A DNA stretch of 64,000 nt from Streptomyces sp. CNH099 (GTDB lineage: Bacteria > Actinomycetota > Actinomycetes > Streptomycetales > Streptomycetaceae): NCBI GenBank assembly GCA_000514715.1, contig AZWL01000022.1:130-64129 (forward strand). The letters are read 5' to 3'. The position numbers and the translations under genes are program-made. Each line of letters begins with the position of its first letter. Position 1 is the first letter of the stretch. The notes beneath the pieces were generated by a model that was not told the origin of the DNA, did no database searches, and was given only the letters and a program-made list of their open reading frames with translations. Shown here piece after piece: positions 58,456 through 62,297 of this stretch.

Positions 58456-59445
58456 TCAGCCCGCCGCCATCAGCTCCGAGACCCTGGCGAACCCGTAGCC
58501 GCGGCGGCGCAGCTCCGGCACGATCTCGCGTACGGCCCGCTCGGTGACGGGCGCCGCGCTGCGCGTGACGTGCAGGACGACCACCGACCCCGGCCGCACC
58601 CGCGTCAGCACCTCCTCCGCCACCGCGTGCGGGTCGGTGGCGAAGGCGTCGCCGCTGGAGACGTCCCACTGCACGGCGGTCACGCCGGTCGGCGCGAGGG
58701 CGCGCAGCGCGGCGTCGTCGTAGCAGCCGCCGGGGAAGCGGAAGTACGGGACGGGCTCGGGCACGCCCGCGCGGCGCAGCGCGGCGAAGGTGCGCTCGAC
58801 CTCGGCGCGCATGGTCCCGGGGGCCACCTCGGGCAGCCCGTGGCAGGGGACGGCGAAGGCGTGGTGGCTGTAGGAGTGGTTGGCCACCTCGAACAGGGGG
58901 TCGCGGCCGACGGTGCGGGCCTGGCCGGGGTAGCGGGCGGCCCAGGTGCCGGTCATGAAGACGGTGGCGGGCACCCTCAGCTCCCGCAGCGCGGCGATGA
59001 GCCCGGGGTTGTCGAACCGCTCGCCGGCGTCGGCGCGGTCGTGCTGGTCGGCCATCATGTCGGCGTCGAAGGTGAGCGCGACGCGCTTGCCGCCCGCGGC
59101 GCGGCGCACGCCGTGGTGCCACACCGGCGCGAGCCCGGCGCGGACGCGGGCCCCGCGCGGCGCCTTGCCTCCCCCACCGGCTACGCCCTTACTGGCGGGG
59201 GTACCCCCTCCCCCGCCGGCTACGCCCTTACTGGCGGGGGTACCCCCATTGCCGTGCGCCCGTCCCTTCGGCTCGCCGTGCGCGGCTCCCCCGTACGCCG
59301 CCGGGCGGTCGCCGTGCTTCCGGGCGCCGTGCTCCCCGGCAGGCGGCGGGGCGGGTGCGGGGGACTCGGCGCACGCCGCGAGGAGGAGGGCGAGCAGCGC
59401 GGCGAGGGCCGCGCGGGCACGGTGCGGGCGCCGGAAGCGGATCAT
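58456..59445 (-). CDS. Polysaccharide deacetylase (CE4) lipoprotein
   Basis: 329 aa. Lipobox AAC with Cys25. NodB-homology domain from about 118: VALTFDADMMAD (Asp motif), VANHSYSHHAF (metal His pair), FRFPGGCYDD, and VVVLHVT at the C-terminus. It would deacetylate cell-wall or other polysaccharide at the surface. The linker (68-93) is two 13-residue units GTPASKGVAGGGG, encoded by a tandem 39-bp palindromic repeat. Confidence 0.88.
   Translation of the reverse strand: MIRFRRPHRARAALAALLALLLAACAESPAPAPPPAGEHGARKHGDRPAAYGGAAHGEPKGRAHGNGGTPASKGVAGGGGGTPASKGVAGGGGKAPRGARVRAGLAPVWHHGVRRAAGGKRVALTFDADMMADQHDRADAGERFDNPGLIAALRELRVPATVFMTGTWAARYPGQARTVGRDPLFEVANHSYSHHAFAVPCHGLPEVAPGTMRAEVERTFAALRRAGVPEPVPYFRFPGGCYDDAALRALAPTGVTAVQWDVSSGDAFATDPHAVAEEVLTRVRPGSVVVLHVTRSAAPVTERAVREIVPELRRRGYGFARVSELMAAG
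59168..59247 (-). repeat. Tandem 39-bp palindromic repeat inside the deacetylase gene
   Basis: Two units beginning CCTCCCCC(A/G)CCGGC and ending GGCGGGGGTACCCC. Each has near-perfect CCCCCGCC/GGCGGGGG stem arms about 15 nt apart. A single copy of the same unit is inside the zapE-like gene at 61943. Confidence 0.85.
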
Positions 59446-59589
59446 GCGGGGAGCGTAAGAGCGCTCCCGGGGGGCGCGCGCGCCGGAGCGAGCGCCCGGG
59501 TGAACGGGGTACGGCGCCGGTCCGCGGCCCGGACCGCGGACCGGTCCTGACCCGGTCCACGGCCGGGCGCCGCACCGTACGGGCCGGGG

Positions 59590-60957
59590 CTACCGCCAGC
59601 GGCCGGTGATGGCGAAGGTGGTGCCGGGCGCGTAGCAGTTCACGTACATCGTCCGGCCGCTCGGCGAGAACGTGACGCCGGCGAACTCGCCGTACGCCGG
59701 TTCCTCCGCGCTGCCGGTGTTCTGCCGGTTGCGCGCCACCGGGAAGACCTCGCCGCGCCGCGAGACGCCGTAGACGAACTGCTCGCCGCCGCCGTCCTCG
59801 CACAGGAACAGGCCGCCGGAGGGCGACAGGGCGATGTTGTCCGGGTACTCGCCGGGGGTGTCCACGCCGTGGTCGGGGCCGAAGCGGATGACGAGCTTCA
59901 GCTCGTTGGTCCGCGGCGTGTAGCGCCACACCTGGCCGAAGTGGTCGCCGCCGGAGCCCTGGTCGCTCCTGGCGTAGCTGGAGACGAAGTACACCGACCG
60001 CCCGCCCCAGTAGCAGCCCTCCAGCTTCTGCGCGTGCGTCATCGGGCGCCCGAAGTCCTGGTGGCGGATCGGGGTCCCGGCGGCCAGCGGGTCGGGCACC
60101 TCGATCCACTCGACGTCGTCGAACGTGGCGCCGATCTCCTCGACCACCGACAGGTCGGGCACGTCCGGCACCCGCATGGCCTGCAGTTCGCCGCCGGCCC
60201 GCAGGGAGCCGCGGCCGCCCTTGGGCTTCTCCGGCAGGAAGCGGTAGAAGAGCCCGAACGGGTGCTCGAAGGCGTCCTCGGTCTCGTACACCACGCCGTT
60301 GGCCGGGTCGAAGGCGACGGCCTCGTGCTGGAAGCGGCCCATCGCGGTGAGCGGGACGGCGCCGCTGGCGTGCGGGTCGGCGGGGTCGACCTCGAAGATG
60401 AAGCCGTGGTCCTTGGTGTACCCGTTGGTGCCGGCCTTGTCCTCGGTCTCCTCGCAGGTCAGCCAGGTGTCCCAGAGGCTGGGGCCGCCGGCGCAGTTGA
60501 CCGCGGTGCCGGCGATGCCGACGCGCTCGCTCTTCGGCTCGCCGTCCCCGCCGACCTCCAGCACGGTGCAGCCGCCCATGCCCATCGGGTCGTAGGTGAG
60601 GCCGTCGACGGCCGGGACCCGGTACGCGGCGTTGGGGCGGTTCTCGTGGTTGCGTACGAGCTGTACCCCCGAACGGCCGCGGCAGGCGCGGAAGGCGGCC
60701 ATGCCGTCGTGGTTGCTGGGCACCGCGCCCTCACCGGAGAGCAGTTGGTCGCCCTCGCGGGAGAGCACCCGGTAACGGAAGCCCTTGGGGAGGTCCAGCA
60801 GGCCGTCGGGGTCGGGGACGAGCGGGCCGTAGCCGGCGTGGTGCGGGGCGTGCGCGGCGGCGGTGCCGGCGTACAGCTCGGAGACGGTGCCGGTGAAGGC
60901 GATACCGGCGCCCAGCGCACCGGTGCGGGCGAGGACCTGACGTCGTGTTGCAGACAT
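59590..60957 (-). CDS. PhoX-like (DUF839) Tat-exported protein
   Basis: 455 aa from ATG 60957. N-terminal twin-arginine signal (SATRRQVLARTG, then a hydrophobic stretch). The mature chain has HDGMAAF, NHENRP, GGCTVLEV, WLTCEET, RFQHEAVAFDPANGVVYETEDA and DNIALSPSGGLFLCEDGGG, a beta-propeller pattern of PhoX alkaline phosphatases. It is likely a secreted Ca-dependent phosphatase; substrate not shown. No pho box was recognised. Confidence 0.85.
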   Translation of the reverse strand: MSATRRQVLARTGALGAGIAFTGTVSELYAGTAAAHAPHHAGYGPLVPDPDGLLDLPKGFRYRVLSREGDQLLSGEGAVPSNHDGMAAFRACRGRSGVQLVRNHENRPNAAYRVPAVDGLTYDPMGMGGCTVLEVGGDGEPKSERVGIAGTAVNCAGGPSLWDTWLTCEETEDKAGTNGYTKDHGFIFEVDPADPHASGAVPLTAMGRFQHEAVAFDPANGVVYETEDAFEHPFGLFYRFLPEKPKGGRGSLRAGGELQAMRVPDVPDLSVVEEIGATFDDVEWIEVPDPLAAGTPIRHQDFGRPMTHAQKLEGCYWGGRSVYFVSSYARSDQGSGGDHFGQVWRYTPRTNELKLVIRFGPDHGVDTPGEYPDNIALSPSGGLFLCEDGGGEQFVYGVSRRGEVFPVARNRQNTGSAEEPAYGEFAGVTFSPSGRTMYVNCYAPGTTFAITGRWR

Positions 60958-61059
60958 GCGGAAGACCAACTCCCTGCTGGCGGACAGGAAAACGGTGACC
61001 CGATCGTGTGTACCACCCGGTGAACCGAAAGTGAACCAGGTGAGAGGGTGTGTGCAGGT

Positions 61060-62232
61060 CTAGTCCTCTGGCCCCGCCGGCCGCGCCGCCCCGCCGTCGG
61101 CCCCTCCGGCGGCGGCGTGCGCGTCGCGCGCCAGGGCGGTCAGCCGGGATATCGCGCGGAAGTACTTCTTGCGGTAGCCGCCGGCGAGCATCTCCGGGCC
61201 GAACAGCCGGTCGAACGGCACGCCGGAGGCGAGCACGGGTATCTCCCGGTCGTACAGCCGGTCCGCGAGCACGACCAGCCGCAGCGCCGTCGCCTCGTCG
61301 GTCACCGGCCGCACGCCGGTCAGGCACACGATCCGTACGCCGTCGGTCAGCGCGCCGTACCGGCTGGGGTGGACGCGCGCGAGGTGGCCCAGCAGGTCGG
61401 GGAAGGCGTCGAGGGTGGCGCCCGGGACGGTGCGGGCGGCGCGGGCGACGGTCTCGTCGGCCGGTGGGGTGGGGGCATCGGGCAGGCCGCGGTGGCGGTA
61501 GTCGTCGCCGTCGATGCGCAGCGGGCGGAAGCGGGCGGCCAGGCCCTGTATCTCGCGCAGGAAGTCGGCCGCGGCGAACCGGCCCTCGCCCAGCTTGCCG
61601 GGCAGCGTGTTGGAGGTGGCGGCCAGCGCAACGCCGGACTCCACGAGCTTGCCGAGGAGGGAGGAGACCAGCACGGTGTCGCCGGGGTCGTCCAGCTCGA
61701 ACTCGTCGATGCACAGCAGCCGGTGGCTGCCGAGGGTGCGTACCGTCTGCTGGAAGCCCAGCGCCCCCACCAGGTGCGTCAGCTCGACGAAGGTGCAGAA
61801 GCCCTTGCGCTCGGGAACGGCCTCGGTGGCGTGCCAGAGCGAGGCCAGCAGGTGGGTCTTGCCGACGCCGAAGCCGCCGTCCAGATACACCCCGCGCGGC
61901 CCGGCCGGCTCCTTCGGCGCCCGCCGCCACCACGGCCGCCGGCCTCCCCCGCCGGCTACGCCCTCACTGGCGGGGGTACCCCCACTGACGGCCGTGGCGC
62001 CGCCGCCGAGCCCGGCGGCGAAGGCGGTGAGGGCGCGTACGGCCTCGGCCTGGCCGGGGCGGGCCGGGTCCGGCACGTAGGTCGCAAAGCGCACCGCGTC
62101 GAAGCGCGGCGGCGGCACCAGCTCGGCGACCAGCCGCTCGGCGGGGACATGCGGCTCGCGGCCGGTGAGCGCACCGGGGGATATCCCGGCGCCCGGCGTG
62201 CCGGCGGCGGGGGCGGAGGTCGAAGGGGGCAC
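61060..62232 (-). CDS. zapE: ZapE/AFG1-like ATPase
   Basis: 390 aa from GTG 62232. P-loop GGFGVGKT (119-126), Walker B LLCIDEFELDD, ATSNTLP sensor region and RPLRIDGDDYRHR, DRLYDREIPVL typical of AFG1-like proteins; in E. coli ZapE acts on the divisome. An N-terminal insertion at 84-97 (GGTPASEGVAGGGG) comes from the palindromic repeat. Divergent from the RibD-type gene with 65 bp between. Confidence 0.88.
   Translation of the reverse strand: MPPSTSAPAAGTPGAGISPGALTGREPHVPAERLVAELVPPPRFDAVRFATYVPDPARPGQAEAVRALTAFAAGLGGGATAVSGGTPASEGVAGGGGRRPWWRRAPKEPAGPRGVYLDGGFGVGKTHLLASLWHATEAVPERKGFCTFVELTHLVGALGFQQTVRTLGSHRLLCIDEFELDDPGDTVLVSSLLGKLVESGVALAATSNTLPGKLGEGRFAAADFLREIQGLAARFRPLRIDGDDYRHRGLPDAPTPPADETVARAARTVPGATLDAFPDLLGHLARVHPSRYGALTDGVRIVCLTGVRPVTDEATALRLVVLADRLYDREIPVLASGVPFDRLFGPEMLAGGYRKKYFRAISRLTALARDAHAAAGGADGGAARPAGPED
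61943..61983 (-). repeat. Palindromic repeat copy inside the zapE-like gene
   Basis: Nearly identical to the deacetylase-gene units (one T-to-C change in the loop), same reading frame, adding GTPASEGVAGGGG to the protein. Confidence 0.85.
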
Positions 62233-62297
62233 GTTCTCACTGTACGGTCGCCGCCTCGGCGAGCCGCACACCAGTGCCCCATGCCACACTGCCGCTT

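Follow-up and report, generated by a model that had tools for sequence, protein, structure and literature searches.

A 39-bp, hairpin-capable repeat at unrelated, mostly intragenic sites in Streptomyces is probably a very small mobile element

A 64,000-nucleotide stretch of the genome of Streptomyces sp. CNH099 (contig AZWL01000022.1, positions 130 to 64,129; hereafter the window) contains three copies of a 39-bp unit, all on the minus strand and distributed over two genes. The first host gene (58456..59445, minus strand) encodes a polysaccharide deacetylase (Pfam PF01522, Polysacc_deac_1) and carries two tandem units ahead of the domain, in a stretch that varies; in gene direction the first copy occupies 59209..59247 and the second 59170..59208. 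The second host gene (61060..62289, minus strand) encodes an AFG1/ZapE-like ATPase (Pfam PF03969, AFG1_ATPase), with a single unit at 61945..61983 where relatives vary in length. Exact coordinates and Pfam families agree with the arrangement described in an earlier note, made from the letters of the window alone. Directly 5' of the zapE unit lies the triplet AGT (61984..61986, minus strand), in place of which three empty alleles have GGC or GGA. The deacetylase array is likewise preceded by AAT (59248..59250, minus strand); we take it for the RRT triplet that accompanies insertions by a rule drawn from 12 clean sites described below, to which the deacetylase site does not belong.

The window copies are not a product of chance, because a 26-base pattern (with Ns) finds the three units at 0 mismatches and one unrelated place at 3, against 0.28 matches expected at up to 3 mismatches (1 of 100 shuffles reached four), and because a scan of the whole 8.14-Mb, 99-contig genome with a 32-nt pattern at up to 3 mismatches yields 17 matches and its reversed-pattern control none. 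With a looser pattern the genome gives 23 matches at up to 1 mismatch, and 39 at up to 2 compared to 10 for its control at the same threshold. A covariance model, used to score 150 first-look candidates, retains 24 matches at E ≤0.1. The unit therefore occurs at many further sites, and not just at two places shared with distant relatives. An alignment of 35 units with their flanks has the rough consensus (ART)GGGGGYNCCCCCGCCRRTRAGGGCGTAGCCGGYGGGGGA(GG), with a mean column identity of 92%. A possible hairpin stem pairs CCCCCGCC with GGYGGGGG, plus an inner GGC/GCC pair, and 98.7% of the pair cells are standard. A search of the window against Rfam returned no match to known RNA families.

We refer to the genome that holds the window as G000, to sampled genomes by other G numbers and to loci by L numbers. 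Presence of the unit in the genus is patchy: it was found in 16 of 295 sampled Streptomyces genomes, with 23 units in G000, 10 in G050, 8 in G184, 6 in G047, 5 in G105 and 1–2 in each of eleven others. In a sample of the phylum (396 genomes) the only match is in the window's own genome, with none in 384 genomes outside Streptomyces and none in 11 other Streptomyces genomes.

Are these sites empty in relatives? The zapE genes of G105, G184 and G047, 88–90% identical, are shorter by exactly 13 residues or 39 bp, and none of the named Streptomyces zapE loci that were compared, the best 80 of 572, contains the insert. Together with the many other sites, this supports the recent spread that the earlier note had proposed. 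At the deacetylase site the relatives lack units as well, the difference being 78 bp to G105 and 42 bp to G184 and G047. Copy number at yet another site ranges from none in G047 through one in G105 to four in G050; for L223:7953 no ortholog was found.

Junctions were compared for 14 full alleles at 12 sites, chosen for an alignable empty allele. At these clean sites the full allele is longer by 39, 78 or 156 bp in 28/28 comparisons, one of which (L239 vs L223) rests on a flank match ending 57 nt away, and none of the 28 shows a target duplication. The triplet upstream of the unit is AGT, AAT, GAT or, once, ATT, and thus RRT save one. RRT stands in none of the empty alleles, whose triplet at that place is GGC, GGA, GCC, GAC, ACC, GAA, CGT, GCT, TAC, TGC, AGC or TCC. 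T-ending codons are rare in Streptomyces, so that RRT looks like part of the insert, with 42 bp gained and 3 bp lost. In 21 of the 28 comparisons GG stands at the start of the empty allele's right flank.

Arrays run head-to-tail in exact 39-bp steps (four, three or two units). The L183 insert of 78 bp can be read as modules of 18, 39 and 21 bp. We propose that arrays grow after insertion by whole 39-bp units and sometimes by 18- or 21-bp modules; growth of this kind leaves the frame unshifted, because all three lengths are multiples of three. At the linker of a two-domain ABC transporter (L223–L226, L239) relatives differ in the orientation of the insertion, and G184 shows module expansion. 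L250–L258 concern the C-terminal region of a gene for an oligopeptide-transporter ATPase (oligo_HPY). The unit sits at the same codon position in G194, G064, G086, G048, G036, G050 and G047; genomes in which that position is empty include G137, G105 and G184, and G263 and G000 have what look like decayed remnants. Such a pattern could stem from an old insertion followed by losses, from transfer, or from a target that was hit repeatedly.

To define the reading frames, we tabulated 54 alleles in 39 loci (units at up to 4 mismatches), hand-collapsed to 32 distinct sites; host genes were called by open frame and third-position GC content (GC3), not by annotation, and L234, placed by the script in another frame, was counted with its ortholog L229:3455. 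Thirty sites lie inside genes; the other two are found at the 3' end of a gene, whose reading frame is closed by the stop within the unit. The sense Gly-rich frame GGTPASEGVAGGG is used at 18 of the 32 sites, the antisense frame PAGYALTGGGTP at 9, the antisense frame PPPATPSLAGVPP at 2, the antisense Arg/Trp-rich frame at none, and at one site the unit is read in a sense frame that has lost its stop by mutation. The frame constancy noted earlier thus holds for the three window copies, all of which translate as GGTPAS(K/E)GVAGGGG, but not genome-wide, where other frames and both orientations occur. Two forward frames of the unit contain stop codons (TGA/TAA and TAG). Of the targets of the form YGG, counted in 39 window genes, the Gly-rich frame has 1192, PAGYALTGGGTP 1869, the Arg/Trp-rich frame 1014 and PPPATPSLAGVPP 656; compared to these, the observed 18, 9, 0 and 2 sites deviate with a chi-square of 23.4 (p 3.3e-5). 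Hence, the Gly-rich frame is over-represented even allowing for stops and target availability. Stops account for part of the frame constancy and the rest is likely peptide tolerance, the added flexible stretch being probably harmless. Selection for a harmless Gly-rich peptide, as suggested in the earlier note, stands to the extent of this excess, but stops explain part of the pattern and the two antisense frames are in use.

Finding at most 2 of 32 sites intergenic has a probability of 0.20 if the intergenic share of targets is 13%, and of 0.017 if it is 22%, the share of the window's YGG targets that lie outside called genes. By themselves, these counts fall short of proving that the preference for genes is strict. 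The hosts are unrelated. Of 29 proteins run for families two were without one, and the remainder include an APH-family kinase, a BTAD regulator, a PALP enzyme, an IclR regulator, GH35, a DUF3686 ATPase, a DeoC aldolase, ABC transporters, an amidohydrolase, a uricase, an FAD monooxygenase, an acyl-CoA dehydrogenase, an AMP-binding enzyme, a Dyp peroxidase and a glutamine cyclotransferase, among others.

The unit occupies unrelated, mostly intragenic sites, has empty alleles in relatives and accounts for an exact gain of 39n bp at clean sites. What could bring this about? Our interpretation, to which we assign a probability of about two in three, is that the units form a family of non-autonomous mobile elements in Streptomyces, very small at 39 bp and able to fold into a hairpin. 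A regular enzymatic reaction, provided in trans, would insert RRT together with a 39-bp copy at the expense of one target triplet, and would favour places close to a copy already present. Selection would then retain frames that add a flexible stretch rich in Gly, Pro, Ala and Thr at tolerated places, such as interdomain linkers or termini. The constancy of ends and length at clean sites argues for an enzyme, and we favour a trans-acting enzyme combined with selection for tolerable linkers, although we infer both of these steps.

Several results weigh against this interpretation. No mobilising enzyme was found among the Y1, reverse-transcriptase and IS110 families: Y1 transposase (PF01797) is without match in G000, G047, G184 and G050 (82% complete) and has one in G105; reverse transcriptase has none in G000, G105 and G050, and IS110 transposase none in the unit carriers G105, G129, G137 and G263. 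As candidate movers, Y1/RAYT, reverse transcriptase and IS110 were rejected, since none tracks with the unit. There are no copies in viral contigs (exact pattern), plasmids or phages, where the low-complexity filter of the plasmid and phage searches may mask part of the GC-rich 44-mer; a phage or plasmid vector was discarded on these counts. Exceptions to RRT occur outside the clean-site set (AAG in L049, GAC in L048, CAT in L053); further non-RRT triplets among the 35 aligned units are ATT in L015 and GGA in L001, the latter downstream of another unit. Ten blurred sites were set aside for indels in their flanks (the deacetylase site, two in L175, L176, L179, L181, L238, L224:4470, L224:16258 and L225:12550). 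Here the length difference is a multiple of 39 in only 5 of 23 comparisons (the deacetylase vs G105, 78; L179, 117 twice; L238 vs G105, 39; L224:16258 vs G184, 39) and a multiple of three in 20; the remaining differences are 42, 84, 87, 154, 158, 123, 96, 33, 36, 24 and 3. The junction rule therefore rests on the clean sites. The evidence for the hairpin is modest: two-sided changes occur in two pairs, each in a single cell, a result matched by 14 of 500 shuffles, and the fold of one copy (z-score -1.1) is not exceptional for its composition.

Could the unit spread without a dedicated enzyme? In templated insertion, by template switching during replication or by short-homology gene conversion, hairpins would stall the polymerase and a nearby copy would serve as donor, its RRT triplet being copied along. 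Such copying also fits the data, because sites cluster locally and RRT behaves as if co-copied. With covariance-model hits of E above 5e-4 excluded and tandem copies taken as one site, the 14 sites of G000 include 3 pairs no more than 3 kb apart, compared to 0.07 expected. The 11 sites taken as specific to this genome, some of them with a blurred empty allele, include 2 such pairs (0.04 expected, p 7e-4). Pairs within 15 kb number 5 among 7 sites in G047 (0.08 expected), 4 among 6 in G105 (0.05) and 3 among 7 in G184 (0.08), three genomes that are not independent, some clusters being common by descent. Units on the same contig are also more alike than units across contigs (mean 2.6 vs 4.6 differences; 13 sites, permutation p 0.027), and both the variable length differences at blurred sites and the failure of all three tested enzyme families to track with the unit are in keeping with templating. 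However, variable ends would be expected, and ends and length are constant in all 28 comparisons at the 12 clean sites; moreover, the flanks have little in common beyond GG on the right. We consider templated insertion possible, if rather unlikely.

The mobile-element interpretation allows a bolder version, which we offer tentatively and with the odds against it: a new insertion reaction, in which a hairpin-capable 39-bp unit enters mostly beside GG, exactly one target triplet is lost without duplication, and the enzyme is neither Y1, IS110 nor reverse transcriptase. The unit would then act as a self-spreading peptide linker, as its own length and that of its modules are divisible by three.

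Movement as repetitive extragenic palindromic (REP) or REPIN elements by a RAYT (Y1) transposase is very improbable. The unit resembles these hairpins of 20–40 bp in size and contains GTAG, and intragenic REPs are known, according to excerpts of PMC3733652. However, PF01797 is without match in four of the five genomes with the most units, which already contradicts this explanation; GTAG or CGTC marks one end of the palindrome in REPs, whereas the GTAG of the unit lies at the inner loop; REP/REPIN elements are mainly extragenic, in contrast to the 30 of 32 units inside genes and 2 at gene 3' ends; and the arrays run head-to-tail. A conserved or convergent Gly-rich protein linker, as opposed to mobile DNA, would explain why most copies encode the same flexible peptide, but can hardly be credited and is already contradicted by the conservation of the DNA itself, by the use of two orientations and several reading frames, and by clean empty alleles that differ by exactly 39n.

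How does the unit compare to other known repeats? It matched no family tested, and appears to work like the Rickettsia palindromic elements and the small dispersed repeats (SDRs) of cyanobacteria, as far as behaviour and description, not sequence, can be compared. SDRs are of cyanobacterial origin and are reportedly the subject of a study by Elhai in 2008. Miniature inverted-repeat transposable elements (MITEs) and ERIC/RU elements have terminal inverted repeats and target duplications. Rickettsia palindromic elements measure ~150 bp and form ten families, with 44 integrations in genes of R. conorii, as given in excerpts of PMC10969869. Like the unit, they are palindromic repeats found in frame in many unrelated genes, and the likeness drawn in the earlier note can be kept for such in-frame behaviour; the Streptomyces unit differs in being 39 bp long and GC-rich, with tandem arrays and triplet replacement. 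Excerpts of PMC2884548 describe SDRs, also named in those of PMC3116915, as very small, some of 20 bp, with tandem copies and possibly mobile. The unit shares the small tandem repeats and has empty sites at 12 positions; its host is different, Streptomyces instead of cyanobacteria, and the two are likened by description. MITEs and ERIC/RU elements are non-autonomous repeats as well, with open frames fused to genes (excerpts of PMC2759123 and PMC10969869), but at 70–300 bp for MITEs (excerpts of PMC3733652) and 103–168 bp for RU elements (PMC2759123) they are longer than the unit. The unit lacks the terminal inverted repeats of MITEs (left end ARTGGGGG, right end GGGGGA) as well as their target-site duplication, absent throughout the clean comparisons. 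Thus, it fails the tested defining features of both REP/RAYT systems and MITEs.

No description of the unit in Streptomyces appears among the matches listed in the Creative Commons-licensed literature, where five of its peptide and DNA strings gave no match. The unit illustrates how a sequence of some tens of bases can spread through conserved genes that it apparently leaves intact. Streptomyces joins, as a new lineage, the few in which repeats are known to insert in frame into genes. Any mechanism has a precise junction to explain: a gain of 39n bp, a replaced triplet, GG usually at the right edge, and spread nearby. Clean full and empty alleles make the movement of mini-repeats without a known transposase directly testable.

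Individual sites merit brief description. The two units at gene 3' ends, L175:1632 and L175:3230 (G000 C2:55140 and 56729), belong to an HxlR-family gene and a methyltransferase gene; the unit's own TAA closes the frame, and in relatives the methyltransferase gene stops at its own TGA near there. L052 (G129) and L056 (G006) share the position of the unit within an aromatic FAD monooxygenase (PF01494, L052), presumably a type of enzyme that antibiotic gene clusters often include. In G129 a single 8.53-Mb contig carries the copies L052 and L065, at about 148 kb and about 8385 kb; their sequences are identical and their orientations opposite, which would fit a location in terminal inverted repeats.

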